From positions 1 to 47,678 of the IMG/VR virus record IMGVR_UViG_3300046804_002270: a stretch of DNA of 47,678 nt. One strand, written 5' to 3'. The notes beneath the pieces are model-generated. The model did not search any database, was not told the DNA's origin, and worked only from the letters and a program-made list of their open reading frames with translations. The translations under genes and the position numbers were made by a program. Below, piece after piece: positions 7,316-32,172 of the stretch (positions are counted from its first letter, which is position 1; each line of letters begins with the position of its first letter). This DNA comes from a virus.

Positions 7316-8053
7316 ATGAACAATATCTCTGGCATAGTTAATCGCCCCTACATAGATTTACAAAATTACATCGACTTAAAATCTTACGATATGCTCCATT
7401 CGGAGATATGTCGTGGGTTTGCTAAAGCTAGTCATTTAACCATAAACGGTTCACACATAATTAACGAAGGATCTATCAATCCTGGTGATTTTAAACCCCT
7501 ATACGAAGCATATAAAGAGCTACAGGCTCTTCCAGATACTGATGCACTCAAGCAGGCATCGCAAGGACTAAATTACAATCAGTTAACTACCTATCTAAAA
7601 TTTAGTTTAGGTGGTTATGATTTGTATACACGATATGTGTTATTCGAAAATTGCACAGACAAAATAGTCTTAGGAGAAGTTGCTGAATATTTCCCAGGTG
7701 TAATATCATGGATATTAAATCTAAAAGAATTAGGAATATTCTCACACATCGACGGCGCCACATTCTTTTTATTAGAAGCAGGTGGCGTTCCTTTTGAGCA
7801 TTGTGATCCGGCCCCGTCGAAAGAGTCGTTGTCAAGAGTGCCAGAATTCATACATATAAAGACAGATTTAGATAGACCGTTTTATCTAATTGATCCAGAC
7901 ACGAGAGAAAAAACCTATATAACAACAAGAGCTTCTTGGTGGAACGAAAGAGATTGGCACGGTGGTGAACCTATCCTCAAGCCTACATATACCTTTAGAG
8001 TCGATGGAACCTTTACTAACGAATTTAGAGAAAAAATATTAAAAAATGCTTAA
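7316..8053 (+). CDS. Fe(II)/2OG oxygenase, island family A, copy 1
   Basis: A 245-residue protein, the first of three paralogues (with 8046 and 16225). Metal-site residues are visible: H162 and D164 in FEHCDP, the distal H215 in the WWNERDWHGG segment, and R228 in the FRVDG strand. The pattern fits the aspartyl/asparaginyl hydroxylase side of the 2OG family. The shared N-terminal motif NRPYIDLQNYIDL is not part of a standard oxygenase core and probably forms a family-specific lid. It leads the first plus-strand operon of the island and overlaps the next gene by 8 nt. The substrate is unknown. Confidence 0.82.
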   Translation: MNNISGIVNRPYIDLQNYIDLKSYDMLHSEICRGFAKASHLTINGSHIINEGSINPGDFKPLYEAYKELQALPDTDALKQASQGLNYNQLTTYLKFSLGGYDLYTRYVLFENCTDKIVLGEVAEYFPGVISWILNLKELGIFSHIDGATFFLLEAGGVPFEHCDPAPSKESLSRVPEFIHIKTDLDRPFYLIDPDTREKTYITTRASWWNERDWHGGEPILKPTYTFRVDGTFTNEFREKILKNA

Positions 8054-8807
8054 AGGAATACTTGGACATCCTTACATAGATCTAAGCAATTACATAGATC
8101 TTAATAGTTTTGATAATCTACATCCAGAAATATGTAGAGCATTTGCCTTGGCTCGAGACAAAGCTGCATTTGGCAGTGTTGATGTCCCAGAAGGATTTAT
8201 GCATTTAAAGGTCTATGATAATCAATTTAAGCCCTTGTATATAACATACAATGACCTTTTAAATTTACCAGACGATGATCCGTTAAAAGTCAATGGTAAA
8301 GACTTACAAGATAATGAACTAACCACATACTTAAAATTTGCTATGGGTGCCTATGATCTATATTCATTTTATGTTCTTTATGATTTCAAGGATGGTTGGA
8401 GAAATGATACAGACATTCGAGGAACACAACAAATGGCTGATTATTTCCCATCTGTTGTTGCTTGGATTGACGAGCTCGTAGATCAAAAAGTATTTTCTCA
8501 TATAGGTCGTGCTACTTTCTTTGTACAAGAAGCAGGTGGTATATCATTTGAGCATAGGGATCCATCAGTTGATCCAGAGTATCCAGATGTGCCGAGTGAG
8601 TTTATACATCTAAGACCATCATTAGATAGACCATTTTATGTTCGAGATTCTGAAACTTTAGAAAAAACTTATATAAACACCAGAGCTGGGTACTGGAATG
8701 ATCAAGACTATCACGGTGGTGATCCGGTATTAAGGCCCACTTATTCTTTTAGAATAGATGGAAAATTCACTGACGAATTTAAAGAAAAAATAAAAAATGG
8801 ACTATAA
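8046..8807 (+). CDS. Fe(II)/2OG oxygenase, island family A, copy 2
   Basis: A 253-residue tandem paralogue of the upstream gene; the two share the start (GHPYIDLSNYIDL), a TTYLKFAMGAYDLY segment and the active-site half. Metal-site residues: H170 and D172 in FEHRDP, H223 in DYHGG, R236 in SFRIDG. All ligands are kept, so both copies should be active, perhaps on successive positions of one substrate. It starts inside the end of copy 1 and ends 11 nt inside the SDR-like gene, so translation is coupled throughout. Confidence 0.83.
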   Translation: MLKGILGHPYIDLSNYIDLNSFDNLHPEICRAFALARDKAAFGSVDVPEGFMHLKVYDNQFKPLYITYNDLLNLPDDDPLKVNGKDLQDNELTTYLKFAMGAYDLYSFYVLYDFKDGWRNDTDIRGTQQMADYFPSVVAWIDELVDQKVFSHIGRATFFVQEAGGISFEHRDPSVDPEYPDVPSEFIHLRPSLDRPFYVRDSETLEKTYINTRAGYWNDQDYHGGDPVLRPTYSFRIDGKFTDEFKEKIKNGL

Positions 8808-9357
8808 AATTATCTGCACAGGGAATCCCAACACACCTGGGATACCAAATGCTGTTAATAAACAGTTTCCAAACACGACATTTATTTCTTTATCGACAGG
8901 TTATGATCTGGTAACCGACGAAGGACAAAATAAGTTCAAAGATATAGTTGCAGAGTTTAACGTTTTTATTAATGTTGCTCAGTTATCAAATGGTGCTCAA
9001 GAGAAACTATTGAGAATAGCACACGAATCTGGTATGCAAGGACACGTATTTAACATAGGAAGTATAGCAGAATACAAACGATGGGAATGGTATGATGCTG
9101 ATTATACCGCAGAAAAAAGAAGTTTAAGAGAAACCAGTTTAGAACTCTGCACAGAATTTTTTAAAACCACACACATAGTAACTGGCGGTTTCCAAGATGC
9201 AACTTCTGATCATCCTGATAGAATGGATCCTATGGAAATTGTCAATGCTATAAAATACATCTTAGAGAGCAAAGTAAATATTCCTATAATAGGTGTAGAA
9301 AAAATAAATGATATTGAAATGCAAAAACAATTAAAGGTACAAAATGGTAAAGTATAA
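8797..9357 (+). CDS. short-chain dehydrogenase/reductase-like protein
   Basis: A 186-residue protein with a compact SDR layout: a nucleotide-binding turn TGNPNTPGI (residues 8-16), NVAQ at 59-62 in the place of the NAG motif, NIGS with S89, and Y103-x3-K107 (YTAEK), the catalytic Ser-Tyr-Lys set. At 186 residues it is shorter than usual (about 250), so the substrate lobe is reduced. Expected role is NAD(P)-linked oxidation or reduction of a hydroxyl or carbonyl, which would suit a product hydroxylated by its oxygenase neighbours. It overlaps genes on both sides. Confidence 0.72.
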   Translation: MDYKIICTGNPNTPGIPNAVNKQFPNTTFISLSTGYDLVTDEGQNKFKDIVAEFNVFINVAQLSNGAQEKLLRIAHESGMQGHVFNIGSIAEYKRWEWYDADYTAEKRSLRETSLELCTEFFKTTHIVTGGFQDATSDHPDRMDPMEIVNAIKYILESKVNIPIIGVEKINDIEMQKQLKVQNGKV

Positions 9358-10201
9358 CATACACGAAAACGGTTGGACTGTGTTCTTAGAAGATTTTGAT
9401 TTTAGAACAGCCACACAAGATGATATAAATCACATAGCAAGGCTGTTGGCAACTAACACATTAGTTATAGCACGAGGACAAACTCTTACAATCGAAGACG
9501 AAATTAGGATCGAAAATATGTTTAAAGATCCGCAAAGATTTTATCACGACGACGAAACTAGTCCAGACTACAACTTTAAAGGTGCAGAAATACCAGAGTC
9601 GGATAGATATCTACTGCGTGTAACTGCTGAACTAAACGATGAAGGCCTTACAGGCATAGCAGGACACGAAAGTGAAATGCATTGGCATGCTAACGATCAA
9701 ACAACTCCGCATAGAAAATCTTTAGTATGGCTATATGGTGTTAAAGGTACTAAAGGATCTCGCACATCGTGGAATAACAATATTATGTCCTATGAAAGTT
9801 TAGACGAAGAAAGACGCAGGCCTTTAGAAAATCTACGACTTACTGTATTAAAAAATGTTTCTTTAAGAGAAGATCAAGAAGATGGTACTGAAAAAATTGA
9901 AGACTACTGTCCAAATTTAGTAATGGAAAACATCGCAGGTAAAAGAGGATTCTATTTTCCGTTCTTGCAGATATCGGGCTTCGAAGGTTTAAGTGAAGAA
10001 GAAAGTAAAGAAATTATTGATTGGTTATCTGAATATACTATTCAAGAACGATTCTGCTATCACCATGATTGGGAAGATGGGGACGTAATCATTACAGAAC
10101 AATGGCTTGGCATACACAAGCGTTGGCCATTTAAAGGAATAGAGAAGCGTCTTTTACATCGAGGTGCATTTGACTTCCCTGATCAAGACTACAAAAATTA
10201 A
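9344..10201 (+). CDS. TauD/TfdA-like oxygenase with HxN site, copy 1
   Basis: A 285-residue member of the TauD clade. The ligand segment WHANDQTT (H115, N117) aligns with WHTD of taurine dioxygenase, so the usual metal-binding Asp is Asn, with an Asp one residue later (D118). The distal His is H258 in LGIHKRW, and the Arg is in the RLLHRGAF strand. A paralogue at 14324 shares the HAN motif. Either the iron site uses an unusual ligand set (possibly changing the chemistry) or D118 takes over. It ends the first plus-strand operon; its stop shares the TTAA at 10198-10201 with the convergent gene. Confidence 0.78.
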   Translation: MVKYNIHENGWTVFLEDFDFRTATQDDINHIARLLATNTLVIARGQTLTIEDEIRIENMFKDPQRFYHDDETSPDYNFKGAEIPESDRYLLRVTAELNDEGLTGIAGHESEMHWHANDQTTPHRKSLVWLYGVKGTKGSRTSWNNNIMSYESLDEERRRPLENLRLTVLKNVSLREDQEDGTEKIEDYCPNLVMENIAGKRGFYFPFLQISGFEGLSEEESKEIIDWLSEYTIQERFCYHHDWEDGDVIITEQWLGIHKRWPFKGIEKRLLHRGAFDFPDQDYKN

Positions 10202-10845
10202 GGTAGTTCGTCGATAACGATATATTCGCCTGTGATATTTTGTTTACGGGCTGCTTCGTTAACCAAGGCTTTCCACTCATCTAGTCCATCGTGACGAGCA
10301 ATGATCATATGCATACGATCTTCGTTGCTTTCGTTGACTACAGAATGTTGGTAATATAAATTCATAGCATATACTCCGCCTGGCTCCATAATCAATTCTT
10401 CGCCATCACCCCATATCCATTTACATCCTACAGGATTATTAAGAGCAACGTTGATGTTTTCAATTAACTTCATGCTAGAATCACTGTGCAGATCTATTTT
10501 GCCACCTGCACGTAACAGCATGAACCTAACTCTGCCATATCTATTACAAGGAAATACTTCCTTTAGCCACTTGGTTGTTATGGGACACATGTCTGCAATC
10601 TCTGTCCACTTCATATCTTTGCTGGCATCTTTGCCTTTTTTGTAACCATAGGTATCATAGTTTTCGTGTTTATCCCAACCTAGACCGTGTATGGTTAAAC
10701 TTTCCCAACCATCATGCACATATTCACCTGCACGATGTGGCGAAAACTTATCTATAAGTGCAAATGCTTCCGCACACATTTCCTTATAAGGCAATGGTAT
10801 ATCTAATTTTAGGTATCTACCGTCGGATTGAAAATAGTCTCTCAT
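10198..10845 (-). CDS. Fe(II)/2OG oxygenase, aspartyl-hydroxylase-like
   Basis: A 215-residue protein. The double-stranded beta-helix is clear: RVRFMLLRAGGKIDLHSD with H120 and D122, a GCKWIWGDGEELIMEPG turn, the distal H167 in YYQHSVVN and R177 in EDRMHMI. This ordering matches the aspartyl/asparaginyl beta-hydroxylase group. It is the last gene of the minus-strand operon that starts at 14255. It overlaps the previous gene by ATGA, has an AAGGA ribosome site, and its stop shares bases with the stop of the convergent TauD-like gene. Confidence 0.82.
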   Translation of the reverse strand: MRDYFQSDGRYLKLDIPLPYKEMCAEAFALIDKFSPHRAGEYVHDGWESLTIHGLGWDKHENYDTYGYKKGKDASKDMKWTEIADMCPITTKWLKEVFPCNRYGRVRFMLLRAGGKIDLHSDSSMKLIENINVALNNPVGCKWIWGDGEELIMEPGGVYAMNLYYQHSVVNESNEDRMHMIIARHDGLDEWKALVNEAARKQNITGEYIVIDELP

Positions 10846-12293
10846 GATAAAATCCTTACTTCACCTGTTAAAGGGCAGTAACTTTTCCAGTTTTGCTGTT
10901 GCCAAGGTGGACAATTAAATTCATTTATATCAGCTAATGCAAATTCAGACACCTTTCCAAAATAAATTTTATCTGTATCGTCTAATTTTGTGTTGTATAT
11001 GTACCCTAATCTAGTCGGAATATGTAACCAAATGTTGGGATTTATTTTTTTCAGATTATTAATTAATGCATTCTCTCTTGCTACTCTAAAATTGACAGGA
11101 GAATAATGTACATACGGGACATGATTAAATGCATCACTAACATTCACTAGTGTTTTTTCGTTGGGTTGAATAAAAGAAAAATTATTATCTGAAAAGAAAT
11201 CAGTTAAGACAAAATTAAATTTTAACTGCTTAACTTTATTCCAAGTCTCTTGGAAATTTTCAAATTCTTTTTCAAATTTTTCAAACCATTCTCTTATTCT
11301 ACGCTCGTGATTAACTAGATCTAAATGATAATTGTTAGGTACAAATTTTAATTGCTTCATATAAAACGATGCATAGTCAGTACCGTCCCATTCTTCTACC
11401 ATAGCTTTCATGAAACTTAGTACAGGATAGCTGATATCCATGAACGTTAATTTTGTATTTTCGTGATAACCTAATCTAGTTATGTTATGCACCCAATTTA
11501 AACCTGTACCGGTAGTAACAAAATGATCCAAACTGTTTCCAGGAATAGAAATATGTTTAGGTAATGTATCACTGTTCCATGGAGTAACCATTGTATTACA
11601 AATCAATGAATATCCAAACAGTAATGGAGCATGTGGTTCTCTAAAAAACGTATGATTATATTCATAATATAGATATTTTTTACCGTTGCGGATCTTGTCC
11701 CCAACATCACAAAAAATAGCATTATGCTTTAATCCAGTTTCAATGAGATTCCAACCATGGCGTTTGTGTTTGTAGGTTCTTTCCGTGGTACCTTCTTTAA
11801 CCCATACAGGTATTTCTGAATCTCCCCTAACACATTCTTCACTGCGTATTGGTTCTATTTTTGTATGTTCTTCATTCCAAGATACTTGACCCATTTCAGG
11901 ACAGCCAATTCTTTTATATTCTGCTAGATTTACAATAAAAAATTGATTGTGAATTTCATAATATGCATCATCTCTATCTAAAATATGCCCTGCAACAGTA
12001 AAATGTTCCTGGCATTTTTCTTCTATAGAGCCGATTATATTTTCAGATAGCGTAGGGTGGGTGCCTGTTATCACAACAACTGCATGAGAATAGAAGTCAT
12101 CAGCAACTGCTCTCTTTAACAGTTTGTCTGAGTCGTTGTCAATGATGATATCATGACCGCTGTTTATGACCAGTGAAAGAAAATAATCGCTGATATTTCT
12201 AGCTACTTCTTTAGAATAGGTTCCAGCTTGGTTTTCGATATTGTCTAAGATACAATATACTATTTTCTTTTTGCGATTAACAACATAATCCAT
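10842..12293 (-). CDS. large uncharacterised island protein
   Basis: A 483-residue protein that I cannot place. The first ~140 residues look like an alpha/beta domain (KKIVYCILDNI, then HAVVVITGTHPTLSENIIGSI), with some resemblance to a glycosyltransferase-type sugar-nucleotide fold. A second domain from about residue 240 contains HFVTTGTGLNW followed by LTFMDISYPVLS, which could be a Rossmann-like motif pair, but key glycines are not clear. The C-terminus is rich in Asn and aromatic residues. An AGGA ribosome site precedes the ATG. It lies between the PP-loop protein and the oxygenase and probably builds or carries the same product. Confidence 0.6.
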   Translation of the reverse strand: MDYVVNRKKKIVYCILDNIENQAGTYSKEVARNISDYFLSLVINSGHDIIIDNDSDKLLKRAVADDFYSHAVVVITGTHPTLSENIIGSIEEKCQEHFTVAGHILDRDDAYYEIHNQFFIVNLAEYKRIGCPEMGQVSWNEEHTKIEPIRSEECVRGDSEIPVWVKEGTTERTYKHKRHGWNLIETGLKHNAIFCDVGDKIRNGKKYLYYEYNHTFFREPHAPLLFGYSLICNTMVTPWNSDTLPKHISIPGNSLDHFVTTGTGLNWVHNITRLGYHENTKLTFMDISYPVLSFMKAMVEEWDGTDYASFYMKQLKFVPNNYHLDLVNHERRIREWFEKFEKEFENFQETWNKVKQLKFNFVLTDFFSDNNFSFIQPNEKTLVNVSDAFNHVPYVHYSPVNFRVARENALINNLKKINPNIWLHIPTRLGYIYNTKLDDTDKIYFGKVSEFALADINEFNCPPWQQQNWKSYCPLTGEVRILS

Positions 12294-12307
12294 TTAGTTT
12301 TCCTGTA

Positions 12308-13033
12308 TTAAGCGTATCCAAACGCCCATATTCTTTCTCTACACCACCAACATTCTCCACAATGAGATCCGGGATGTTTATCATTTTCACAACTTCTTGT
12401 AACGGGAAGCAAACTCTGCTCAACTCCAAGTGTTCTATATATTCTTGCTATATCTCGTTTATCGTGATTGAAGAAAGGAATATAAGCACGTTCGTCTATA
12501 GTTAATTTATCAACTACTCTACCGTCGGTGGTAAGAGGAACTTCTGAAAAACTTGTTGCTAATTCAACAGGAATGCTAAATCCAAACAAAGGATGTTCAT
12601 CTTCAGCAGCTCTAAATTTATTATGCCAATCAGGTTGTTGATTAGGCCACTTTGATAATTCTTCTAACGGAGGAAATTTGGTTAATCCCAAATAGACAAT
12701 GTCAACTTCTTTTCTATCTAATGCCGAAGTTAACATGTTAATATAGAATTCTGCAGATTCATCTGGTTCAACATAACTTTTATGCACAGTAAAATTAGTA
12801 TTGCCTGTGAGTCTAGAGCAGGTTGCAACTACATCATCAAAATGTTTTTCTAAAATTGGTCTACGATATTCGGCCATCATGTTGTAGATGTGTATATGTG
12901 ATTTAATATTTGACATCAGTATATACAATACTACCGCACTATCGGCTCCGCAGCTCACACCAACACCTACAGGCCCGGATTCATACAATCCTATTGTAAT
13001 TCCGTCAATGTCTATGTAATTTAAGTTTACCAT
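12308..13033 (-). CDS. PP-loop ATP pyrophosphatase, QueC-like Cys motif
   Basis: A 241-residue protein with an N-terminal PP-loop (SCGADS, residues 27-32, against the usual SGGxDS), which binds ATP and adenylates a substrate. The C-terminus holds a four-Cys zinc site like that of QueC (C215, then C225-x2-C228-x2-C231, followed by RERIWAF). QueC makes 7-cyano-7-deazaguanine, but the rest of the sequence is not close enough to assign that reaction. It may activate a carboxylate for amide or nitrile formation. It overlaps the GNAT-like gene by 7 nt. A QueD-like gene lies at 41200, outside the island. Confidence 0.72.
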   Translation of the reverse strand: MVNLNYIDIDGITIGLYESGPVGVGVSCGADSAVVLYILMSNIKSHIHIYNMMAEYRRPILEKHFDDVVATCSRLTGNTNFTVHKSYVEPDESAEFYINMLTSALDRKEVDIVYLGLTKFPPLEELSKWPNQQPDWHNKFRAAEDEHPLFGFSIPVELATSFSEVPLTTDGRVVDKLTIDERAYIPFFNHDKRDIARIYRTLGVEQSLLPVTRSCENDKHPGSHCGECWWCRERIWAFGYA

Positions 13034-13578
13034 CTTTTATACTTTGCAAGTTCTTCTAAAAATTTTGTTGGATACAATTCCCAAACAGTCTGATTTGTAC
13101 CTCTATAAAAAATATCTTTGATTCTTTTCATCTGCCCAGAGGCTTCCATAGCTGGAGCAAATATTCTATGCACCAATCTTTGGGTGCCTGCTTCATTCTC
13201 ATTGCTGGTGATAAACAGTCTACTGCCCTTTGGAGCCCATTCAATACATGCAGGAATTAAAAACTGGCTGGTAACGTGTTGATGTGTGACTATCTGATTC
13301 TTTGTTCGAAGTGTATTTGTTGGTAAAAGGTCAGTAAACACACAGGTACGTGCAGCTATTCTATATGCATTGTCTCCCATTTCAGGAAAACTATGTGCTG
13401 CCACACTACCCACTGCTACTTCATTGTAGTACAATATCCATACCTGCCACTCGTTCTCATTACGAAAACAATCAATCATGGTTTTTCGACTATCGTTATT
13501 TACAAATCCTTTGGCCTTTGCTAATCGATAAAAATCTGATAGATCTAATTCTTCACTCCAGGGCGTTATTCTATACAT
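13027..13578 (-). CDS. GNAT-type N-acetyltransferase-like protein
   Basis: A 183-residue protein with the length and strand order of a GNAT fold: an N-terminal helix-rich part (DLSDFYRLAKAKGF), the strand pair EWQVWILYYNEVAVGSVAAH, then a long segment with an Arg-rich region (ARTCVFTDL...RTKNQIVTHQHVT) in the place of the acetyl-CoA loop. The Q/RxxGxG/A signature is not clear, so acyl-CoA binding is uncertain. It is translationally coupled to the kinase-like gene upstream (overlap 13 nt) and the PP-loop gene downstream. Confidence 0.5.
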   Translation of the reverse strand: MYRITPWSEELDLSDFYRLAKAKGFVNNDSRKTMIDCFRNENEWQVWILYYNEVAVGSVAAHSFPEMGDNAYRIAARTCVFTDLLPTNTLRTKNQIVTHQHVTSQFLIPACIEWAPKGSRLFITSNENEAGTQRLVHRIFAPAMEASGQMKRIKDIFYRGTNQTVWELYPTKFLEELAKYKRW

Positions 13579-14255
13579 TTGGCTCTCTCGATAAACTCTG
13601 CTGGGTAATTAGTTCTAAAACTTTCCCAACATAATTGATCCATAACTGCCCACGGCTGTGGTTTGTCCCATTCAATGCCTAGTGCGTCTAGATGTTTACG
13701 CATTTCTATCTGTCTATTAGAATGAATATGACTTTCAACATCTTTGATGCTGATGTTTGGTTCATTTTTATTGTATGTAAAGAAATAATTGATGCTTTTG
13801 AGTTTGCCGTTGACTAAAAAATAACTGCTAGGGTGCATACTGTATTTGTGTAATCCTAAACTCTTGTGCGCTTTGATGATTTCTAGCATCTGTTCTTGCC
13901 AATCTGGCAATACTTTATCAAAGTTTGAGTGATCGCAACCTGCTTGTTCCCAAAAATCTGGGCCGTCTATTTCTAAAAACAGTTGTTGTTTTTCTAATTC
14001 AATCTTAAGTATTCTAGGAATCAAGTCTGGATAAGCGTTACGCATCTGTGTAAGATAATTTACTTCTCGTAACCATTTCTCTGTCATTAGTGCAGGGTCA
14101 ACTACCTGATTCTTTCCTTTGTGATATTCGCTGTCATTATGGTACCATTGGCAGAATGTTTTTTTATCTTTGCTGATCAAGCTCGTATAAATTAAATTGT
14201 TTCTGCTTGGGCTCTCGCCTGGAACGTTGTTGTAATAATACTCAAAGTCTAGCAC
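13566..14255 (-). CDS. degenerate kinase-fold protein (pseudokinase-like), copy 1
   Basis: A 229-residue protein. Residues 92-100 (LFLEIDGPD) resemble a kinase hinge, and residues 138-158 (YSMHPSSYFLV, then KLKSINYFF) align with the HGDLHPGNILV...IDFG region of small-molecule kinases, but the catalytic Asp, the metal-binding Asn and the DFG Asp are Ser, Ser/Tyr and Asn. It is paralogous to 19700-20392 (shared LPDWQEQ/LPNWQEH and the same loop). It may bind a substrate or carrier rather than phosphorylate. GTG start at 14255 with an AGGA ribosome site. It is the first gene of its operon. Confidence 0.6.
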   Translation of the reverse strand: MLDFEYYYNNVPGESPSRNNLIYTSLISKDKKTFCQWYHNDSEYHKGKNQVVDPALMTEKWLREVNYLTQMRNAYPDLIPRILKIELEKQQLFLEIDGPDFWEQAGCDHSNFDKVLPDWQEQMLEIIKAHKSLGLHKYSMHPSSYFLVNGKLKSINYFFTYNKNEPNISIKDVESHIHSNRQIEMRKHLDALGIEWDKPQPWAVMDQLCWESFRTNYPAEFIERAKCIE

Positions 14256-14286
14256 TCTAATTTTCCTCTACACACTAATTTATGCC

Positions 14287-14293
14287 ATAAATA
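14287..14293 (+). promoter_or_regulatory. late-type promoter in a divergent region
   Basis: ATAAATA on the plus strand, 30 nt upstream of the ATG at 14324, which has GGAG at 14313-14316. On the minus strand the neighbouring bases read CATAAATT, a weaker copy facing the GTG at 14255. The two form an imperfect palindrome (ATTTATG-CC-ATAAAT) that could fire both ways. Confidence 0.55.
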
Positions 14294-14323
14294 GATGCAT
14301 CTGTACAAATATGGAGTAATAAC

Positions 14324-22595: not shown

Positions 22596-22599
22596 GAAA

Positions 22600-22607
22600 T
22601 ATTTATA
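22600..22607 (-). promoter_or_regulatory. T4-late-type promoter, minus strand
   Basis: TATAAATA, an exact match to the T4 late consensus, read on the minus strand. Only four bases separate it from the ATG at 22595. Confidence 0.7.
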
Positions 22608-22623
22608 TGCTACTATTACGAGG

Positions 22624-22630
22624 TTAAATA
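22624..22630 (+). promoter_or_regulatory. late-type promoter, plus strand
   Basis: TTAAATA four bases before the ATG at 22635, the mirror of the minus-strand promoter in the same inverted repeat. It implies a leaderless transcript for the PLP gene. Confidence 0.6.
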
Positions 22631-22634
22631 TTTC

Positions 22635-24732: not shown

Positions 24733-25624
24733 AGTTACTAGTGCGTGGCCTCATCAAGATCAGATTAAAGTCGAATGGAATCTTGGCAAACGCTGTAACT
24801 ACGACTGCACATATTGTCCTTCATCGATACACGATAACTTTAGTCCTCATACTGATATCAATATATTAGAATCAGCAGTTGATCGTTTATGCGAATTAGA
24901 TAAACCATTACGCATCAGCCTAACAGGCGGAGAACCCTGTGTACATCCTGACATAGAAGATTTTTTAGATTATCTAAAGCGTAAAAATATATTCTGGGTC
25001 AACTTAACTACAAATGGCACTAGAGGTTATCGTTGGTATTTAGATAATGAGATGTTCTTCAATCATCTTGTATTCAGCCTACACTTTGAAAAACTAGATC
25101 AATGGGTACGAGTATTTGATACTATTTTAAAATTTTACGATGAAACAGAAAGAGATTTCTTTGTCAATGTAATGGCGCATCATGATCATATGGATCATGT
25201 TAGAACTGTGGTAAAGAAATTTGATGAGGTTGGAATAAAATATGCCATTCGTAGAATACGATGGACTGAAGGGGATCATAATATATTTGATGATCTAAAA
25301 TACGAAGGCAAAGATTTAGAATGGATATTGTCTAAAGACGCAACAGTAAAACCCAATTGCCGAGTTGACAACGAACAGGTTATTCATGCTAACGACATTA
25401 TTAAAAAACATCTAAATCAATTCAAGGGTTGGCAATGTAACGCAGGTATAGAAAGCCTAATGATAAATTGGGACGGTGAAGTACATCGTGCGACTTGTAG
25501 AGTCGGTGGTAGTCTAGGGAACATCTACAAAGGAACGTTTGGTGTTCCTAGCGATCCAGTTATATGTACTCGAGATTTCTGTACCTGTGCTGCCGATATA
25601 CCGTTAACTAAAACTTTTAGTTAA
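24725..25624 (+). CDS. radical-SAM enzyme, family 2, copy 1
   Basis: A 299-residue protein. I start it at the ATG at 24725; the frame extends upstream to 24701, but only inside the previous gene. Motif C24-x3-C28-x2-C31 (CNYDCTYC), then SLTGGEPCVHPD and TTNGTRG. C-terminal Cys residues (QCNAG, TCRVGG, CTCAAD) may bind an auxiliary cluster. It ends PLTKTFS, and the same final bases encode LTKSFS on the other strand in the convergent paralogue. Related copies: 25604-26590 and 31195-32172. Confidence 0.87.
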   Translation: MFKVTSAWPHQDQIKVEWNLGKRCNYDCTYCPSSIHDNFSPHTDINILESAVDRLCELDKPLRISLTGGEPCVHPDIEDFLDYLKRKNIFWVNLTTNGTRGYRWYLDNEMFFNHLVFSLHFEKLDQWVRVFDTILKFYDETERDFFVNVMAHHDHMDHVRTVVKKFDEVGIKYAIRRIRWTEGDHNIFDDLKYEGKDLEWILSKDATVKPNCRVDNEQVIHANDIIKKHLNQFKGWQCNAGIESLMINWDGEVHRATCRVGGSLGNIYKGTFGVPSDPVICTRDFCTCAADIPLTKTFS

Positions 25625-26590
25625 GTGAGTTTCTGGAATACAACTACAGCAGTCTATCTGACATTTTGCCTGTTTAAATTCTGGATCAAACACGTCAATA
25701 AAATTTTTATCTAAGATATTATATCTTTGATCAAACAAAGGTTGACTGCAAGAACCTTGTATGATACCATCCCAGTTTATATAGATAGAATCTAATCCTA
25801 TATTACAATTCCAACCTTTAAAATCAGTCCAACCTTTGTTAATGTATGTGTTAGATGTGGCCATTACAGGAAGGACTTTATCTTCTAACCATACAGCACT
25901 TTCAAATATTTTAATAGATCCATCAAAGATCAAATTGTAGTTTTTAAGAAACCATGTTAGATTAGGCAATCGTTTCAATTCTTTAGACATATAATTCTTT
26001 TGAATTTTAGTGTAAGGAAGATAACCTACAACTTCTTTGGCTAATACAAACCAAGGATACTTGCTAGACGTTTTCATATACTCAACTGCTGCTACACAAT
26101 CATCCCATCTAGTAGGATCCATTAATACCAATACTGTTACTTTTTTATTTAGAGAATATAATGTGTCAGCAACAGCAATCATGTGATCAATATTGCTTTC
26201 TTTAACATGATGTGACAATGTTGCATTGTCAATTAAATGTCCATTTTCTTGCCACCAGCGCAGAGTTCTAGATCCATTTGATGTAACACTTATATAAACA
26301 TCATTAGATTTTTTTATTTCCGAAATAACTTTATGCAGGTCTTTCCAGACTGTGGGTTCACCGCCGCCGATGTCTAGATGGAATTTGGTTTTTCCTAATT
26401 TGATAGTGTATTGATTAAACAGATGCTGTAGATTAGCTATTACAGTATCAGTGTCAGTTGGTGATTTAAAATTTCCTTCATTTGACCCTGGGAAACAATA
26501 GTCGCATTTGAAATTACATACATTGCTAGGGCTCCATCTTATATTCAAAATATTAGATTTAGAAAGAGATTTTATTTTAATTGGTTTCAT
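25604..26590 (-). CDS. radical-SAM enzyme, family 2, copy 2
   Basis: A 328-residue paralogue of the convergent gene at 24725. Motif C25-x3-C29-x2-C32 (CNFKCDYC), then DIGGGEPTVWKD and VTSNGSRTL. C-terminal features shared with copy 1 are WNCNIGLDSIYINWDG, a late CCSC cluster and an LTKSFS end. It is the final gene of the third minus-strand operon and overlaps the plus-strand copy by 21 nt. It starts in an ATGA overlap. Confidence 0.87.
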   Translation of the reverse strand: MKPIKIKSLSKSNILNIRWSPSNVCNFKCDYCFPGSNEGNFKSPTDTDTVIANLQHLFNQYTIKLGKTKFHLDIGGGEPTVWKDLHKVISEIKKSNDVYISVTSNGSRTLRWWQENGHLIDNATLSHHVKESNIDHMIAVADTLYSLNKKVTVLVLMDPTRWDDCVAAVEYMKTSSKYPWFVLAKEVVGYLPYTKIQKNYMSKELKRLPNLTWFLKNYNLIFDGSIKIFESAVWLEDKVLPVMATSNTYINKGWTDFKGWNCNIGLDSIYINWDGIIQGSCSQPLFDQRYNILDKNFIDVFDPEFKQAKCQIDCCSCIPETHLTKSFS

Positions 26591-27972
26591 AGCAGATGTT
26601 TTAATTCGGGAAATATCGACTTGGCATCTGTACCTCGAATTAAATCTAAATTAGCAACATACTCTTTAAAGTCCGGCAATAGGTGTGTGTGATCTCCCGC
26701 CTGTATAAATTTTAAAATGCCTTCCCAGCGTTTCCAACCGTAGGGATTATCTTTCCAAAAGTTATCATCCTGTCTATAATTGTCCCATAACCATTGTTTG
26801 AAATCTGCAAACTGTTTTACAATTTCATCTTTATCTTCTTGTGGTAATATTCTAGCACTAAGGAAAGTAGGAATATAAAGCAAATGCAAATTAATAATGC
26901 CGCCGCCTGTTTCATATTCGTCAAGTGCAAACTTATTGATCTTTTTAAAGCCTTGGCTCAATTTCCATTTAGCAAAATCAATAATATGTTTGACATTGAA
27001 TACTTGTACAGCACAGGCTATCGCGCAATGAATATTATCTGGAGCATTGTCCATTAACCATAAACTACGTTCTATGTCAGCCCAGTCTGTGGGATATCGT
27101 ATGTAATGATTTCGTTCCATTAAAGCATCAATACTAAATGCATAGCGTACCTGTTTGAATTGACTCCACACATTAATAATATCTTCATTAACGAATATTC
27201 CGTTGCTGTTATATCGCAGGCTGATATTTTTAGCGTAACCACGTTTAATGATTTCGTCTAAGAAGCGTCTGTGTTCTTTGATCATTAAAGGTTCACCACC
27301 AGCAAAGTACAGTTGTGTGATGTTTGGTATTTGCTCAAAGACGTCGTCCCAGAACTCCGGTTTTTCGTACCAAACATTATTAAATTCTTCTTTGGCAAAT
27401 CCTATCTGGTTTAATACTATTGTGCTTTTAGTTTTTTCAACTAACTTATCATAGTCTTGCAACCAACGACTGCTGTCGTGCGGACTACACATCACGCATT
27501 TTAAATTACAGGTATGTCCTAGTCGCAAATCCAAATATCGTATAACAGGCGGCACAGCACCTGTTGAATCAGTATCAGCGATAAGTTTATTAAAATCTAA
27601 ACCATCACGATTCCATTCATACATTTCCCATAAGCGTTTGCTGACTACTCCATTGCTTTCTTCTTCAAAACATTTTGTACAGCTGGCGGGTATCTTTCCT
27701 TCTAACATTGTTTTACGAACACTGCGCATATACTGATTATTAAATGCTTCTAACGGAGTTTCGCGTCCAAAGTTAGCGGGCAAGCCATCTTCTTTTTTAA
27801 CCAAGCCCACGGCATAGTCTCCGGTTTGAGCTCCGCTGGCATTAGTAACACAGCAAAGTCTAGCATCCCCATTAGGGCGTGTTGCCAAGTGTATCCAAGG
27901 CAAAGCACAAAAGGTGGGAGACCCTGTACGTTCTTCTATCAGTTTGATATACGTTTTAATCTTATTAGTCAT
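26587..27972 (-). CDS. radical-SAM enzyme with N-terminal SPASM-like Cys domain, copy 2
   Basis: A 461-residue paralogue of 23470-24732: the same leading Cys set (C22 in FCALPWIHLA, C40-C41, C98-x2-C101) before the radical-SAM core C155-x3-C159-x2-C162 (CNLKCVMC) and FAGGEPL. It has an extra ~40 residues before the core and a different C-terminus. The conserved segments SIDAL/SIDGI and QVFNV/QVSNV show common descent. It is translationally coupled to the SGNH gene upstream (overlap 8 nt) and to the radical-SAM gene downstream (ATGA). Confidence 0.88.
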   Translation of the reverse strand: MTNKIKTYIKLIEERTGSPTFCALPWIHLATRPNGDARLCCVTNASGAQTGDYAVGLVKKEDGLPANFGRETPLEAFNNQYMRSVRKTMLEGKIPASCTKCFEEESNGVVSKRLWEMYEWNRDGLDFNKLIADTDSTGAVPPVIRYLDLRLGHTCNLKCVMCSPHDSSRWLQDYDKLVEKTKSTIVLNQIGFAKEEFNNVWYEKPEFWDDVFEQIPNITQLYFAGGEPLMIKEHRRFLDEIIKRGYAKNISLRYNSNGIFVNEDIINVWSQFKQVRYAFSIDALMERNHYIRYPTDWADIERSLWLMDNAPDNIHCAIACAVQVFNVKHIIDFAKWKLSQGFKKINKFALDEYETGGGIINLHLLYIPTFLSARILPQEDKDEIVKQFADFKQWLWDNYRQDDNFWKDNPYGWKRWEGILKFIQAGDHTHLLPDFKEYVANLDLIRGTDAKSIFPELKHLL

Positions 27973-28771
27973 TGTCCCACATCTCGGAAATGATATCAGA
28001 ATAATTTAAAATTCTTCCATCTTCATAATTATCAATGGCATTCTTAATAAAATCAAATACCATATTGTTTTTAATACCTTCTAGGTGATTTGGCCTATTG
28101 TCTATCTTAGGATATTGAAAAGTGTTTTCTGTATCACCGGCTACACTTAAACTGTTAAGAGCAGGTCTGATTTCTACACCGTGTTTCCAAGCATAATCAT
28201 AATGAACATTGCTAGGATGGAATCCAGAGAAGTCCCAACTGCTGGGATTACCAAATGCCCAGAAATGAATAATCTTTGTAGTAGAAGGGAATCTCGGCAA
28301 TACATTATTATCAATGTATTCTAAAATTGCTCTATGTTCAAATTCTTCTTTTTCTTGATCATACAAATGCAGATAAAATTGTTTAGCTGCTTCCCACAAT
28401 TCTTTGGTAAACGGATTTGTTTTTCCAGGATACTCTTTTTCAAACCATTTTTCTTTTTCCGGATTGTAACCTGCAATACCAGAACTTACATGAATCGAAC
28501 GAGCAACTCGATTAAACAATCTACCAGGATTGGTCCAAACAAATACACACACGTCTGGTATTGACTGAGACATAATCAATGGCTGCAATTGAATTAAAAA
28601 TGCATCCCATACCGACGACCCGCCATAGCCAAGATTAACGATGTTGGCGTTGTAATAATCTCTTGTCTGTTCAATATAGGTAAGATATCCGTGCTCTATG
28701 CTATGAGGATTGTTTAATTTCGTACAAAAGCTATCACCAAAGAAGCCGACAGTTTTTATTTTGTCGTTCAT
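27965..28771 (-). CDS. SGNH/GDSL-type hydrolase-like protein, copy 1
   Basis: A 268-residue protein with GFFGDSFC near the N-terminus (Ser nucleophile), NLGYGGSSVWDA (Gly block), a block with CVFVWTNPGR in the Asn position, and RPNHLEG near the end giving the His. This fits the SGNH esterase/acyl-hydrolase family; deacylation or acyl transfer on a sugar or peptide is likely. A second, more divergent member lies at 30437-31195. It starts in a TAATG overlap with the radical-SAM gene. Confidence 0.78.
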   Translation of the reverse strand: MNDKIKTVGFFGDSFCTKLNNPHSIEHGYLTYIEQTRDYYNANIVNLGYGGSSVWDAFLIQLQPLIMSQSIPDVCVFVWTNPGRLFNRVARSIHVSSGIAGYNPEKEKWFEKEYPGKTNPFTKELWEAAKQFYLHLYDQEKEEFEHRAILEYIDNNVLPRFPSTTKIIHFWAFGNPSSWDFSGFHPSNVHYDYAWKHGVEIRPALNSLSVAGDTENTFQYPKIDNRPNHLEGIKNNMVFDFIKNAIDNYEDGRILNYSDIISEMWDND

Positions 28772-29856
28772 TAAAAAACATCCAAATCTAAAAATTGATC
28801 TCTACACTGGCTTACTTCTACTTTTTCAAACTTACCACATACTCTTGCGCACATGATAACAGACTTATCTTCGAATCCTTTGTTCCAAACAGTTTGCCAG
28901 GCATCGCTATTAACAAGATCTTTAACGGATCGTTTGTTTAGATTTAATCCTTCCATGCCGCCAAATGCTTCTAGCGCAGAATTTAAACTCTCTTTACTAT
29001 GTGTCATAAAATCCCAAACTAGTTTATTGGGTCTAGAATATTGATATGGGACGCTGGCAAGGAAACAACAGGGCCAAGCATATCCTTGAGAATCGATGTA
29101 TAGACTCTTTGTTCCTTCAACTTCACAGCTAACGGTACAACTTGCTATTGCTTCTTTATAATTCTCAACTGTCTTTCTATCAATAAATGCTATCTTCTTT
29201 TCGCTTGGAGATTCTAATTTATAAGCAACATTGCCATTGCTGTCTAAAACTTCAAAGAATGGATCTCCGATAAATCTACTAGTTTGCTTTTCATGAAAGC
29301 TGTCAAATCCCAATTCTTTAGCCAACTGTCTAGCAGTTTCTAATTGATGTTCGTTGTGTTTAAAGGTTATAAAATTCCAACGAGCGATACCACCAGCTGC
29401 GATAAATGATTTGGCGTTTTCAATAATCTTATTAAAGTCTGTGCCTATTCTATAGAGGTGATGTGTATCTTCAAGACCGTCTATGCCGAATAGCACTATG
29501 TGATTCTTTGGCATGGCCTTTGCTAAATCTTTCCACCAAGATTTAGATCTTGCGCTGCCATTAGTGTGTACTTGCAAATCTACATTAGGGTTTGATTTAG
29601 CGATGTAATCAACAATTTTAATTAGATCTTTATTTAAAATTGGATCGCCATAATTGCCACACAGCGATATGCCTGTGACCTGTGCTATCAACTCACTAGG
29701 AATAATAGATTTAAATTTCTTTATGTCTAGGTTCTTTTCAATTACATTTGGGTTAGGTAAACCGCCATGTTCGTTTCGGGCGCACATAGGACATTTAGCC
29801 TGACATAGGCTAGAAATTTCTAGATGTAATTTTTTTATATCTTCATACTTGTACAT
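28771..29856 (-). CDS. radical-SAM/SPASM-type enzyme, family 1, copy 2
   Basis: A 361-residue paralogue of 18131-19216. I use the ATG at 29856, in a TAATG overlap with the methyltransferase stop; the frame reaches 29880 only by running into that gene. Motif C18-x3-C22-x2-C25 (CQAKCPMC), SLCGNYGDP, HTNGSARS, and C-terminal Cys residues (WPCCFLAS, CARVCG) for a SPASM-type cluster. The two copies have the same length, so they probably catalyse the same kind of step in different operons. Confidence 0.88.
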   Translation of the reverse strand: MYKYEDIKKLHLEISSLCQAKCPMCARNEHGGLPNPNVIEKNLDIKKFKSIIPSELIAQVTGISLCGNYGDPILNKDLIKIVDYIAKSNPNVDLQVHTNGSARSKSWWKDLAKAMPKNHIVLFGIDGLEDTHHLYRIGTDFNKIIENAKSFIAAGGIARWNFITFKHNEHQLETARQLAKELGFDSFHEKQTSRFIGDPFFEVLDSNGNVAYKLESPSEKKIAFIDRKTVENYKEAIASCTVSCEVEGTKSLYIDSQGYAWPCCFLASVPYQYSRPNKLVWDFMTHSKESLNSALEAFGGMEGLNLNKRSVKDLVNSDAWQTVWNKGFEDKSVIMCARVCGKFEKVEVSQCRDQFLDLDVF

Positions 29857-30446
29857 TATTTTTTTCCAATAATCATCCAACGTGTGTAAAGAGGCAATTC
29901 TAATTCACCTGCCCACAATACGTTGATGCCACACTGTGTTTTGAATTCTTCAAGACTTTTTGCTATTCTGATATGCTCGGGAATTTCATAATTATTACTC
30001 TGTAATACTAACAAGCTGTTGTCAGACATTTTTGATTTCCATGCTTCAAATTGTTCTTGTGTAATATGTTCACAACTTGTATTGATGATTACATCTGCAT
30101 CGCTAGGAGTGTCGCACATATCAGCAGTAATTGCTTGAAACTTGCCTACCATCTCCTCGATTTTATTCATGTTAATTGCAATAGGTTCGCAAGTTGGATC
30201 AATGTCAATGCTACGAATACTTAATACAGGTACATCGCTTTGAAACAGTAAACTAGCTAATGTTCCTACCCAACCACCGTATATGTCAACCGTGACAAAT
30301 TTCTTAACATGTTTTCTTAAATTTTTAATCAACCACTGTTTGCTCTTTAATTGTCCTTGCCAGAATGCATCCATGGTACGCATAGGATCTGGGCTTTGTC
30401 TTACTGCCTGCATCCAGTGATGAAAATGATCTAAATTTATTTGCAT
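29856..30446 (-). CDS. class-I SAM-dependent methyltransferase-like protein
   Basis: A 196-residue protein. Motif I is TVDIYGGWVGTLA (residues ~52-64), motif II SIDIDPTC, then ITADMCD and DVIINTSCEHIT as motifs III and IV. This is a full, compact Rossmann methyltransferase. Motif I is DxYGGxxG rather than the usual ExGxGxG. The acceptor is unknown. It overlaps the SGNH-like gene upstream by 10 nt and the radical-SAM gene downstream by 1 nt. Confidence 0.8.
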   Translation of the reverse strand: MQINLDHFHHWMQAVRQSPDPMRTMDAFWQGQLKSKQWLIKNLRKHVKKFVTVDIYGGWVGTLASLLFQSDVPVLSIRSIDIDPTCEPIAINMNKIEEMVGKFQAITADMCDTPSDADVIINTSCEHITQEQFEAWKSKMSDNSLLVLQSNNYEIPEHIRIAKSLEEFKTQCGINVLWAGELELPLYTRWMIIGKK

Positions 30447-31195
30447 AACTGTAATCCTTTTGCTATTTCAATGGCTGCTAACTTTGCTGACACTATACCA
30501 GGGTGCATTAAGTCTCTAGCCTTATCGATGTTTTTAAAATGCTTACACTTCAGTAAAGAATTATTTCCCGAGAACGATCCTTCAAAGTATCTACTTTTAT
30601 TTTGCCATATCGCTTTGGCTGTCTTCTGAATAAAAATAGCATTAACTTTGGCATGATGACCATTGCTGTTCCATACATCCATAAGACTGTTTGGCTCCAT
30701 GTTCCACGATCCGTGGTTTCTTATACTGCTGCGATCGTATTCAAGTACTCTAGTATAATCGGGCCAGATGTAAACAACTGCAAATGGTGCAGGGTATTTT
30801 TCATTTAACATAATGGAGTTGTGTAATGCAAATGTCATAGACGATCCGCCTGAACCTAAATTCACAACAGGACGGTCTACTATTGCAGCCAATCTACTAC
30901 TGACAGTATCTTCTTCACTGAGTCCAACACCATAAGCATTAGAACATCCAAATATCACAATAGACTCTGCCCAATCTATTTTGTTAAACTCTTGAGTTCT
31001 GTATCCTTGAGAATTATTTTTATATGTTACTTCGTGTGTTCTATAATACCAATCTTGTGGTTGTGACTTTAAATTTTCTAAGAATCTTTCTTCTGTGTCA
31101 GTTCCGCTCCACTGCGGAGAGAGGTACGCATCGGGAGGTAGGAATTTATTTTTCCTGACATGATTCAATAGCGGATTGAGTGTAAAAATATTCAT
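30437..31195 (-). CDS. SGNH-hydrolase-like protein, copy 2 (GCS in place of GDS)
   Basis: A 252-residue protein. Block I reads IFGCSNAYGVGL, where the usual GDS is GCS, so the Ser is kept. Block II is NLGSGGSSMTFALHN and the C-terminal block has DLMHPG. The order matches 27965-28771, but the identity is low. Loss of the first-block Asp is common in diverged SGNH proteins and need not abolish activity. It begins in a TAATG overlap with the radical-SAM gene. Confidence 0.68.
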   Translation of the reverse strand: MNIFTLNPLLNHVRKNKFLPPDAYLSPQWSGTDTEERFLENLKSQPQDWYYRTHEVTYKNNSQGYRTQEFNKIDWAESIVIFGCSNAYGVGLSEEDTVSSRLAAIVDRPVVNLGSGGSSMTFALHNSIMLNEKYPAPFAVVYIWPDYTRVLEYDRSSIRNHGSWNMEPNSLMDVWNSNGHHAKVNAIFIQKTAKAIWQNKSRYFEGSFSGNNSLLKCKHFKNIDKARDLMHPGIVSAKLAAIEIAKGLQLCK

Positions 31196-32172
31196 TATCT
31201 ACTTTTAGGTATTTTTGAATCTGCCGAACTAACACAACTTGGTGTGATACATAATTTCGGTTCCTTAAACAATTCAAAGTGATCTAATGTACCTAACGGT
31301 ACATCATGACAACTGTAACTTCTCTTAACCTCAGTTCCTCTTATTATAACACTTTGATATCCAGAATTACAAGTCCAACCTTGAAACTTATTAAATCCAA
31401 ATGCGTTAAAACGTTCTGCCTGATCAAACAGGTATTCTTTATTATCTTCATCGTATAATGCTATTTGATAAACTTCTTCACCGTCCGCACGTTGCGGAAA
31501 TCCTTTCTGCATTATATCGATCATTTCGGGTGTATACCCGTCAACCAATCTACTGGCTGTAGGATCGCTTTGTGGTTTCAGTGTTACATTAATTCCACGT
31601 TTATACAATCGTTCCATACGTTCGTACAATTGATAAAACTTTTCTGGAACCATAACTTGATTTACAGTTACATGTACACTTTCATACATCAACTGCAAAC
31701 ACTTGTCACCAAACTCTTGCTCTTTGGCAAACTCATCATGGAAGGATGCTGTAATGCTTCTGCGCTGTAGAAGATTGGTATTATTACACCATGTGTTCCA
31801 CCATTTTGATCCAGGGCTAAGATTGGTAGTCATATGTACACTTTGATAACTGCTTTCTGTTTCGTCTAGGTGTTTGACTAAATCTAGAAGTTGTTTATAA
31901 GCAGTAGGCTCGCCACCACTAAAACTCCAATGGAATTGATTGAATCCATTTTGTCTTGCCTGTCTTTTTATTTCGTCTATGGTGTTGGTATAGACTTCAA
32001 ATGACTGGTAATCCAATTTGTCGCTGCGGGCATAGGGCCAACAATAGGAACAATTATAGTTACAAAATCTGCCTAAGATCCAACTAATAGAAAATAATGG
32101 ACGACTCAACATCGTGCGCTGTCCAAAGCGTTTTATATTTTGAAATGGTATTGTTTGAAAATCGGTTATCAT
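31195..32172 (-). CDS. radical-SAM enzyme, family 2, copy 3
   Basis: A 325-residue protein. Motif C37-x3-C41-x2-C44 (CNYNCSYC), SFSGGEPTAYKQ, MTTNLSPGS. C-terminal WTCNSGYQS and SCHD resemble the WQCNAG/WNCNIG regions of the other two copies, but the final Cys pair is reduced (PSCVSSAD) and the end is IPKSR instead of LTKxFS. First gene of the third minus-strand operon; a TTAAATA box lies ten bases upstream. Confidence 0.87.
   Translation of the reverse strand: MITDFQTIPFQNIKRFGQRTMLSRPLFSISWILGRFCNYNCSYCWPYARSDKLDYQSFEVYTNTIDEIKRQARQNGFNQFHWSFSGGEPTAYKQLLDLVKHLDETESSYQSVHMTTNLSPGSKWWNTWCNNTNLLQRRSITASFHDEFAKEQEFGDKCLQLMYESVHVTVNQVMVPEKFYQLYERMERLYKRGINVTLKPQSDPTASRLVDGYTPEMIDIMQKGFPQRADGEEVYQIALYDEDNKEYLFDQAERFNAFGFNKFQGWTCNSGYQSVIIRGTEVKRSYSCHDVPLGTLDHFELFKEPKLCITPSCVSSADSKIPKSR

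Follow-up and report, generated by a model that had tools for sequence, protein, structure and literature searches.

The island at positions 7,316–32,172 of IMGVR_UViG_3300046804_002270 probably, though with appreciable doubt, encodes a late-expressed pathway that makes and tailors an unusual glycan for host recognition in a clade of T4-like jumbo phages. The record is a genome fragment of a virus of bacteria from a lake, and the window analyzed here comprises positions 1–47,678 of it. In the proposed scheme, a core of radical-SAM (rSAM) proteins of families F6, F3, and F0 together with F13, usually accompanied by F8 and F16, would act on sugars or sugar-bound substrates. Variable rSAM, 2OG, aminotransferase, acetyltransferase, PP-loop, and SGNH proteins would then add strain-specific modifications, comparable to O-antigen loci. 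The product would probably be attached to the phage tail fibre or adhesin, which we slightly favor over the envelope of the infected host; a host-envelope glycan is counted as the other branch of this reading and not as part of the lipid/LPS route considered below. We infer the glycan nature of the product, the order of the steps, and the acceptor from gene content, conservation, synteny, late-type promoter motifs, fibre adjacency, and the glycan-enzyme context of relatives, all of which are observed directly.

The ~25-kb island is filled by 29 ORFs, none shorter than 163 aa; nine of them encode rSAM proteins and ten encode 2OG-oxygenase-fold proteins. Non-coding DNA within 7,269–32,390 sums to 387 nt, spread over six gaps of which 32,173–32,390 is the longest. 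This bears out the initial annotation both in the tight packing with almost no spacer DNA and in the lack of room for a precursor peptide gene. Wherever dS is finite, dN/dS against the nearest relative lies between 0.03 and 0.34, indicating purifying selection on the island genes. The outer boundary is formed by a tail-fibre-like protein (6,063–7,268, plus strand) with an ATAAATA motif at −41; its Mtd_N domain (PF18454, 9.7e-8) confirms the neighboring tail-fibre gene noted initially. ThyX also adjoins the island, and an eleventh 2OG enzyme (33,132–33,674, PF13640) is encoded just beyond it.

The initial count of nine CxxxCxxC radical-SAM proteins holds, as the motif is intact in all nine and all exceed the Radical_SAM cut-off in a DNA-level search; at the protein level, eight pass the Pfam cut-off and the ninth (18,131) scores just under it (29.3 vs 29.5). 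The most conserved core gene is F6 (31,195–32,172, minus strand; PF04055 1.4e-12), which has TTAAATA upstream and at least 595 viral relatives. Two SPASM-like core proteins on the minus strand belong to F3 (18,131–19,216, PF04055 1.2e-6; 28,771–29,880, PF04055 3.5e-11), a family kept also in Bdellovibrionota. Two further core proteins pass the cut-off of 170 bits for N_Twi_rSAM (NF033640), a model whose name gives no function, and here they lie within a multi-rSAM cluster: 23,470–24,732 (plus strand, 335 bits) and 26,587–27,972 (minus strand, 385 bits), the latter with top Bdellovibrionota matches at 42–48% identity. The remaining four are a protein with an HMPTM-type zinc ribbon (15,171–16,241, plus strand; PF04055 2.1e-16, PF23545 8.4e-13), a B12-binding-type protein (20,389–21,933, minus strand; PF04055 1.4e-13), and two F1 members (24,701–25,624, plus strand, PF04055 1.8e-12; 25,604–26,590, minus strand, PF04055 1.7e-9). 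No island rSAM matches a known glycan-modifying equivalog.

Among the ten oxygenase-fold proteins, Pfam recognizes two as TauD and three, one of them weakly, as Asp_Arg_Hydrox. Both TauD proteins (9,344–10,201, PF02668 3.8e-19, 70.1 bits; 14,324–15,178, PF02668 8.5e-25, 88.6 bits; both plus strand) clear the gathering cut-off of 27, yet HxN replaces HxD in both, as in 42 of 54 family members. Therefore, the ten 2OG-type oxygenases proposed initially stand as to fold or family, but comprise eight with the canonical HxD...H triad and two atypical, family-typical HxN proteins. The aspartyl/asparaginyl hydroxylase group consists of F8 (10,198–10,845, minus strand; PF05118 9e-12; triad in 66/66), F9 (17,030–17,623, plus strand; PF05118 2e-10), and F17 (21,930–22,595, minus strand; weak PF05118 match, 0.0032; HxD...H in 20/20). 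The other five have no Pfam match: three plus-strand F7 proteins (7,316–8,053, with ATAAATA at −12 and H-x-D...H kept in its 67-member family; 8,046–8,807, with the same conservation; and 16,207–17,028, likewise, in the conserved core), F5 (17,620–18,144, plus strand; triad in 39/39), and F4 (19,216–19,725, minus strand; 35/35). Across these five, each of the 35–67 relatives aligned per family has H-x-D, and the distal His is present wherever a row has no gap at that position; a profile search with F7 against PDB sequences was uninformative.

The predicted structure of F16 (10,842–12,293, minus strand; AlphaFold2 pLDDT 91.9) combines, by Foldseek, a GT-A-like N-terminal domain with a methyltransferase-fold C-terminal domain. 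The GT-A assignment is weak, the N-domain having no PDB match below E=1e-3, but it adds to the case for a glycan. F16 adjoins F8 in 66/80 loci and is weakly similar to the lysyl hydroxylase/glycosyltransferase LH3; a profile search against PDB sequences gave nothing useful, and hhalign detected no relation between b0 and F16. The two kinase-fold proteins of the initial annotation keep their fold but are better named pseudokinases. For the first F2 member (13,566–14,255, minus strand; AlphaFold2 pLDDT 92.5), Foldseek matches the kinase fold with probability 1.0 and a TM of about 0.45–0.5, and in a conserved stretch read by eye the catalytic Asp of the HRD motif is S/T/A, as also in the second, assigned by family membership (19,700–20,404, minus strand). 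F2 is absent from 84,980 cellular genomes searched. The proposed PP-loop ATPase (12,308–13,033, minus strand) is supported in its QueC-like C-terminal part (PF06508 2e-7), to which the match is limited. Motifs and family conservation, with no Pfam matches, underlie the remaining labels: a GNAT-like protein conserved as family F26 (13,027–13,578, minus strand), a short SDR-like protein read from its motif and with no homolog in 16 relatives (8,797–9,357, plus strand), a PLP-enzyme-like protein of family F18 with a conserved SK motif (22,635–23,486, plus strand), two SGNH-like proteins identified by motif (27,965–28,771, and F77 at 30,437–31,195; both minus strand), and the methyltransferase-like core protein F13, which also occurs in Bdellovibrionota (29,856–30,446, minus strand).

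Sixteen long IMG/VR relatives carry rSAM genes adjoining the same anchor gene, and complete islands comprise 7–13 rSAM and 5–14 oxygenase-family genes. The site is usually flanked by ThyX on one side and a tail-fibre gene (F48/F104) on the other; its ends, ThyX/F6 and phosphoesterase/fibre, are syntenic and its content is variable in between. Related phages carry the genes as a block in conserved order and thus not scattered among unrelated neighbors, which sustains the initial view of a single system. Sister islands encode UDP-glucose dehydrogenase, a DegT aminotransferase (8.5e-96), and a GDP-mannose dehydratase-like epimerase as well as a formyltransferase, an APS-kinase-like protein, and a sulfotransferase, and several contain a StrB-like amidinotransferase (1e-83). 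These genes argue for a glycan, as does the arrangement in marine relatives, where a fibre gene, a GT8-like pair (glycogenin 4e-7), a b0 pair, F6, F3, F13, and F16 form one run that terminates at a fibre-type gene. A 281-kb relative has both sites occupied, the ThyX-side block and a host-recognition-type site, and G001 bears a separate cluster after its baseplate/fibre genes. Fatty-acid-desaturase-like and AMP-binding accessory genes in some relatives fit a pure glycan pathway poorly. A small ORF (F59) was rejected as a RiPP precursor: it occurs in few relatives only, lacks a core-like repeat, and is absent from the window.

The island genes are probably switched on late in infection, judging by their upstream motifs. 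A T4-type late-promoter motif marks the start of 40 of 75 directional gene blocks in the islands compared with 10 of 274 internal genes (p=1.5e-22). In the window, the divergent intergenic region 14,256–14,323 has ATAAATA at −37 of 14,324 and ATAAATT upstream of 14,255, while 22,596–22,634 has TATAAATA on the minus and TTAAATA on the plus strand. The flanking fibre gene at 6,063 also bears a late-type motif, and a gp55-like late sigma factor was matched in four of eight relative records searched, the window phage itself being a fragment. The motifs at block starts and at the fibre gene, together with the sigma factor, count in favor of the proposed late glycan pathway.

The core of three rSAMs and a methyltransferase-like gene also lies on Bdellovibrionota chromosomes (contigs of up to 937 kb), where F6-F3-F0(-F13) stand side by side (L139–L154) and the best F0 matches are 42–48% identical, as determined with a subgroup alignment, the broad F0 alignment being too diverged. 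These loci differ in being chromosomal, in having bona fide glycosyltransferases close by, and in lacking F2, which was found in none of the cellular genomes searched. Their neighbors include GT2 glycosyltransferases, an AT3-SGNH acyltransferase, and AsnB, and in a Gammaproteobacteria MAG the core sits beside a NodU-type carbamoyltransferase and a nucleotide-sugar epimerase; such neighbors argue for a glycan product. In the F6 tree, phage and bacterial proteins are largely apart, and the Bdellovibrionota homology does not identify the host of the phage.

Besides the weak GT-A assignment of F16, the lack of an rSAM match to a glycan-modifying equivalog, and the ill-fitting accessory genes, two further points count against a glycan: known glycosyltransferases and nucleotide-sugar enzymes have no match above cut-off among the genes of the window, and SPASM/twitch rSAMs and Asp/Asn hydroxylases often have peptides or proteins as substrates. 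Direct modification of the adjacent tail fibre, with residues hydroxylated, cross-linked, or otherwise altered and sugars minor or absent, would agree with the bordering fibre genes, the late-type motifs, the Asp/Asn-hydroxylase-type folds, which are the most frequent among the oxygenases, and the weak resemblance of F16 to LH3. We consider it unlikely, since the Bdellovibrionota core occurs without phage fibres and near glycosyltransferases, and sister islands carry nucleotide-sugar enzymes. Production by the infected cell of a RiPP-like compound or some other small natural product, such as a toxin, an antibiotic, or a signal, is improbable despite the many SPASM/twitch-type rSAMs and the AMP-binding and amidinotransferase genes of some relatives. 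The 387 nt of spacer hold no precursor gene, PqqD/RRE domains are found by Pfam in 0/29 island proteins, all nine rSAMs score far below the cut-off of every RiPP maturase model listed, protease or exporter genes were not found, and late-type motifs fit poorly. The peptide once suggested as product thus loses ground, and the surface glycan suggested alongside it gains clearly from the Bdellovibrionota neighbors, the sister-island sugar enzymes, the marine GT8-like genes, and Vibrio phage K566.

LpxO, a lipid A hydroxylase, is a member of the Asp_Arg_Hydrox family, which lends some weight to remodeling of host lipid or LPS without a new glycan, blocking superinfection or progeny re-adsorption. 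The rSAM cluster of K566 has PagP and LpxC genes in its vicinity, which points the same way, as does the preference of the pelagimyophage authors for an altered host O-chain (PMC7029224). Late-type promoters suit exclusion of competitors less well, however, and the island adjoins a fibre, making this route quite improbable. Hypermodification of DNA or tRNA, queuosine-like or of thymidine type, could draw on the QueC-like PP-loop protein and neighboring ThyX but is very improbable: Pfam matched none of the island genes to a tRNA-guanine transglycosylase, a DNA base kinase, or any further family of nucleobase-modifying enzymes, and the core is common to Bdellovibrionota glycan-type loci. DNA-modification and queuosine readings were rejected for lack of these partner enzymes.

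The glycan reading also rests on published host recognition clusters (HRCs) of pelagimyophages, which combine GT8 glycosyltransferases with, in some, rSAM cassettes (PMC7029224). Like the HRCs of pelagimyophages and cyanomyophages, the island is hypervariable between syntenic anchors and adjoins a tail fibre (Mtd_N fibre at 6,063) in a T4-like phage, and the marine relatives G017/G020 have its core in an HRC-type setting. In contrast, the block of the window clade occupies another site, on the ThyX side and with an Mtd_N/F48 fibre, and consists mostly of rSAM and 2OG enzymes, with no GT8 recognized in the window by Pfam, although marine relatives have GT8-like genes. HRCs lie between VrlC and gp14, which were not located here; the window island lies by ThyX and the marine core by fibres. 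Campylobacter phages CP220/CPt10 carry 11–12 rSAMs in exchangeable modules with glycine amidinotransferase, which several sister islands share but the window lacks (Pfam); the available sections of that report mention no 2OG enzymes (PMC2853527). Among cultured phages, F6 has its closest match in an rSAM of CP21 (23%), and in the CP21 region examined the rSAMs best match F1-like families, with F3, F13, and F2 missing. Vibrio phages K566/K567 possess five N_Twi_rSAM genes on both strands interleaved with GT8/GT4-type genes, again arguing for a glycan, but the 2OG family, F3, F6, and F13 were undetected in the 31-kb region examined. Among cultured phages, megablast of the first 25 kb of the window matched tRNA genes only; tblastn of four window proteins gave no match for F2 and F7 and 23–24% matches for F6 and F0, and a flanking protein matches T4-like relatives. 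The initial statement that this is not a described system needs qualifying: rSAM clusters are described (PMC7029224; PMC2853527), and we found no description in open-access literature of the combination with about ten 2OG-type enzymes, the Bdellovibrionota counterpart, or the late-promoter layout.

A bolder and doubtful extension is that the core may represent an unrecognized class of pathways that build glycans or glycoproteins by radical chemistry and are common to predatory Bdellovibrionota and very common aquatic T4-like phages. In phages, it might serve late adhesin decoration and evolve by swaps of rSAM/2OG modules, including His-Asn-His TauD-like enzymes that may perform non-hydroxylating chemistry. 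Much unusual chemistry depends on radical-SAM and 2OG enzymes, and the presence of some 20 of them in one late-type phage island, with hundreds of environmental viruses involved, suggests that a large repertoire awaits exploration. Should the product prove to be a glycan of the virion or envelope, the island would offer a concrete, testable mechanism for diversification of host recognition in abundant aquatic phages, and the Bdellovibrionota counterpart provides a cellular system for study. F6, whose copies in 13 of 14 aligned relatives are 82–86% identical to that of the window, lends itself to use as a marker and as a target for enzyme work.

The island at 7316-32172 of the 47,678-base IMG/VR viral record comprises 29 tightly packed genes, with 387 nt devoid of gene coverage from 7269 to 32390. 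Pfam identifies nine radical SAM (rSAM) proteins, eight of which score above the family cut-off at the protein level, while rSAM 18131 lies 0.2 bits short; in the DNA-level search all nine exceed the cut-off, and CxxxCxxC is intact in every one. Two belong firmly to NF033640, "twitch domain-containing radical SAM protein", with scores of 335 and 385 bits (cut-off 170 bits), one is of the B12 type, and another carries an HMPTM zinc ribbon. Five of the ten oxygenases are identified by Pfam, two as TauD and three as Asp/Asn hydroxylase type (one weakly). The remaining five fall into the Fe(II)/2-oxoglutarate (2OG) oxygenase-like families F4, F5, and F7, in which HxD is kept in every relative (35, 39, and 67, respectively) and the distal His in all but three F7 rows, which are gapped there. 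On this Pfam, motif, and family-conservation evidence, the nine rSAM and ten oxygenase genes of the initial annotation are essentially correct; all ten oxygenases have the fold, but eight are canonical and the two TauD proteins atypical. An eleventh 2OG enzyme is located just beyond the island at 33132-33674.

Both TauD proteins (9344-10201 and 14324-15178) display HxN at the expected iron-binding HxD/E site. At the same position, 42 members of their 54-member family F11 have Asn, 9 have Asp, and 3 have Glu; the iron site is thus atypical rather than randomly lost. A second TauD-like family among the relatives, F182, reads WHSN in 10/10 members.

The island is a real, conserved, and functional-looking unit. 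IMG/VR contains at least 595 relatives of the rSAM gene F6 at its end (31195-32172), with identities of ~81-88% among the best 80, one identical copy aside. In all sixteen long contigs taken for comparison, F6 is surrounded by rSAM genes; complete or near-complete islands contain 7-13 rSAM and 5-14 oxygenase-family genes, while two contigs ending within the island hold only two rSAMs. Gene order is recurrent, as are the anchors: ThyX or a small structural-type gene beside F6 at one end and phosphoesterase/tail fibre at the other. Scaffold families are common to 10-16 relatives, the remaining families being variable or unique. Many pairs have saturated dS; in those with a finite value, dN/dS to the nearest relative falls at 0.03-0.34, so the island genes are maintained. 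Moreover, the pseudokinase-like family F2 has 502 viral relatives and none were found in 84,980 cellular genomes, and F16 has 193 viral relatives, with the Asp/Asn hydroxylase F8 nearby in 66 of 80 loci.

Gene content around the island families points towards a glycan product. Sister islands carry UDP-glucose dehydrogenases, a DegT sugar aminotransferase, a GDP-mannose dehydratase-like epimerase, a formyltransferase, an APS-kinase-like protein, a sulfotransferase, a StrB-like amidinotransferase, a class III aminotransferase, and AMP-binding proteins. Marine relatives show a run of fibre genes, two GT8-like genes (glycogenin profile match, 4e-7), two b0 genes, F6, the rSAM F3, the methyltransferase-like F13, in some cases F8, and F16, followed further on by a fibre-type gene. 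The b0 proteins contain DxD, and a Bdellovibrionota member gives a weak GT2 match. For F16, high-confidence fold prediction yields an N-terminal GT-A glycosyltransferase-like domain, resembling LH3, STIV A197, and many viral glycosyltransferases at modest scores, and a methyltransferase domain at the C-terminus. Further, N_Twi_rSAM genes alternate with GT8/GT4-type genes in Vibrio phage K566, with LpxC near. By eye, some sister islands encode fatty-acid-desaturase-like proteins (L377:10112-10858, L377:16770-17582, L107:18008-18778, and L124:10850-11395), hinting at lipid modification.

A genome scan for the N_Twi_rSAM subgroup places the closest cellular relatives in Bdellovibrionota, where F6, F3, and F0 are adjacent on contigs of up to 937 kb, often with F13, the PLP-enzyme-like F18, or F8 nearby. 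GT2 glycosyltransferases, an AT3-SGNH acyltransferase, and asparagine synthase are among the neighbours; locus L159, from a Gammaproteobacteria MAG, adds a nucleotide-sugar epimerase and a NodU-type carbamoyltransferase. Island genes also occur on the short contigs L138 (3.5 kb, filed as a Thermoplasmata MAG; 60% identical) and L158 (Neisseriaceae MAG), probably misbinned phage sequences.

T4 late promoters have ATAAATA as their core. Five of the motif's seven occurrences in the window lie within 80 nt upstream of genes (0.3 expected), and exact sites precede 6063 (the fibre gene) and, within the island, 7316, 14324, and 21930, with one-mismatch sites at 22635, 13566-14255, and 31195-32172. 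Clade-wide, [AT]TAAATA occurs within 60 nt upstream of 40/75 island block-start genes, the first of a same-direction run, versus 10/274 internal ones (Fisher p=1.5e-22; random windows 1.2%). Searches of eight relatives detect a T4 gp55-like sigma in four, and in the 281-kb relative the motif lies upstream of genes including fibre genes. Because of these block-start motifs, the sigma, and the motif before fibre genes, the island appears to be expressed late. In 34 genes across the clade, including 7316 and 21930, ATAAATA begins at -12/-11 of the start codon. At that distance, transcription would begin at the ATG itself and the late mRNAs would be leaderless; another spacing peak lies near -40.

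We propose that the island encodes a late-expressed pathway of glycan synthesis and tailoring within a host-recognition system. The core rSAMs and F13 would have a sugar or a glycan-linked molecule as their substrate. Judged from their superfamilies, further rSAMs may add dehydrogenation, epimerisation, and B12-dependent methylation, and 2OG enzymes hydroxylation and desaturation, as variable decorations, to which PLP, GNAT, PP-loop, and SGNH proteins could contribute more. The neighbouring fibre genes, the late motifs, and the pairing of F16 with a hydroxylase slightly favour the phage's own adhesin as acceptor. Lipid A hydroxylases exist within the Asp/Asn hydroxylase family, which would suit the host envelope as putative alternative acceptor. 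Also in keeping with the envelope are the genes for PagP and LpxC close to the K566 cluster, as well as the published pelagimyophage view (PMC7029224). A candidate acceptor could be the small protein at 32557-33132, which has a conserved C-terminus and a variable Thr/Ser/Gly-rich middle (Cys-containing in the window), lies near F6 in nine records, and looks structural.

In pelagimyophages, the "host recognition cluster" brings radical-SAM cassettes together with GT8 glycosyltransferases and fibres (PMC7029224), and the island would work likewise, probably as a glycan-tailoring variant. In contrast to that cluster, it lacks a recognised GT8, and it lies on the ThyX side, apparently elsewhere than the pelagimyophage site between VrlC and gp14 (PMC7029224). 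The 281-kb relative has a cluster by baseplate and fibre genes at 128-153 kb plus a window-type island at 230-262 kb. Since these form one unit in marine relatives, the window-type island is most simply read as a relocated half. In the 281-kb relative, 145-158 kb holds a second rSAM cluster besides that of the window-type island; it lies by GT8-like, b0, and baseplate/fibre genes and is apparently the original host-recognition site. Campylobacter phages CP220/CPt10 encode 11 and 12 rSAM proteins, grouped into modules alongside an amidinotransferase (PMC2853527), and the island shares enzyme types with these. In the literature searched, we found no description of an rSAM island with about ten 2OG-type proteins, of its Bdellovibrionota counterpart, of the pseudokinase family, or of the late-promoter layout.

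Two small elements lie just past the F6 end of the island. A 109-nt tRNA-like sequence at 32236-32344 (+) has good acceptor and T stems, reaching 25.9 bits in Rfam (cut-off 29) and no ARAGORN call, and 32391-32585 encodes a basic 64-aa protein, histone-H1-like by eye.
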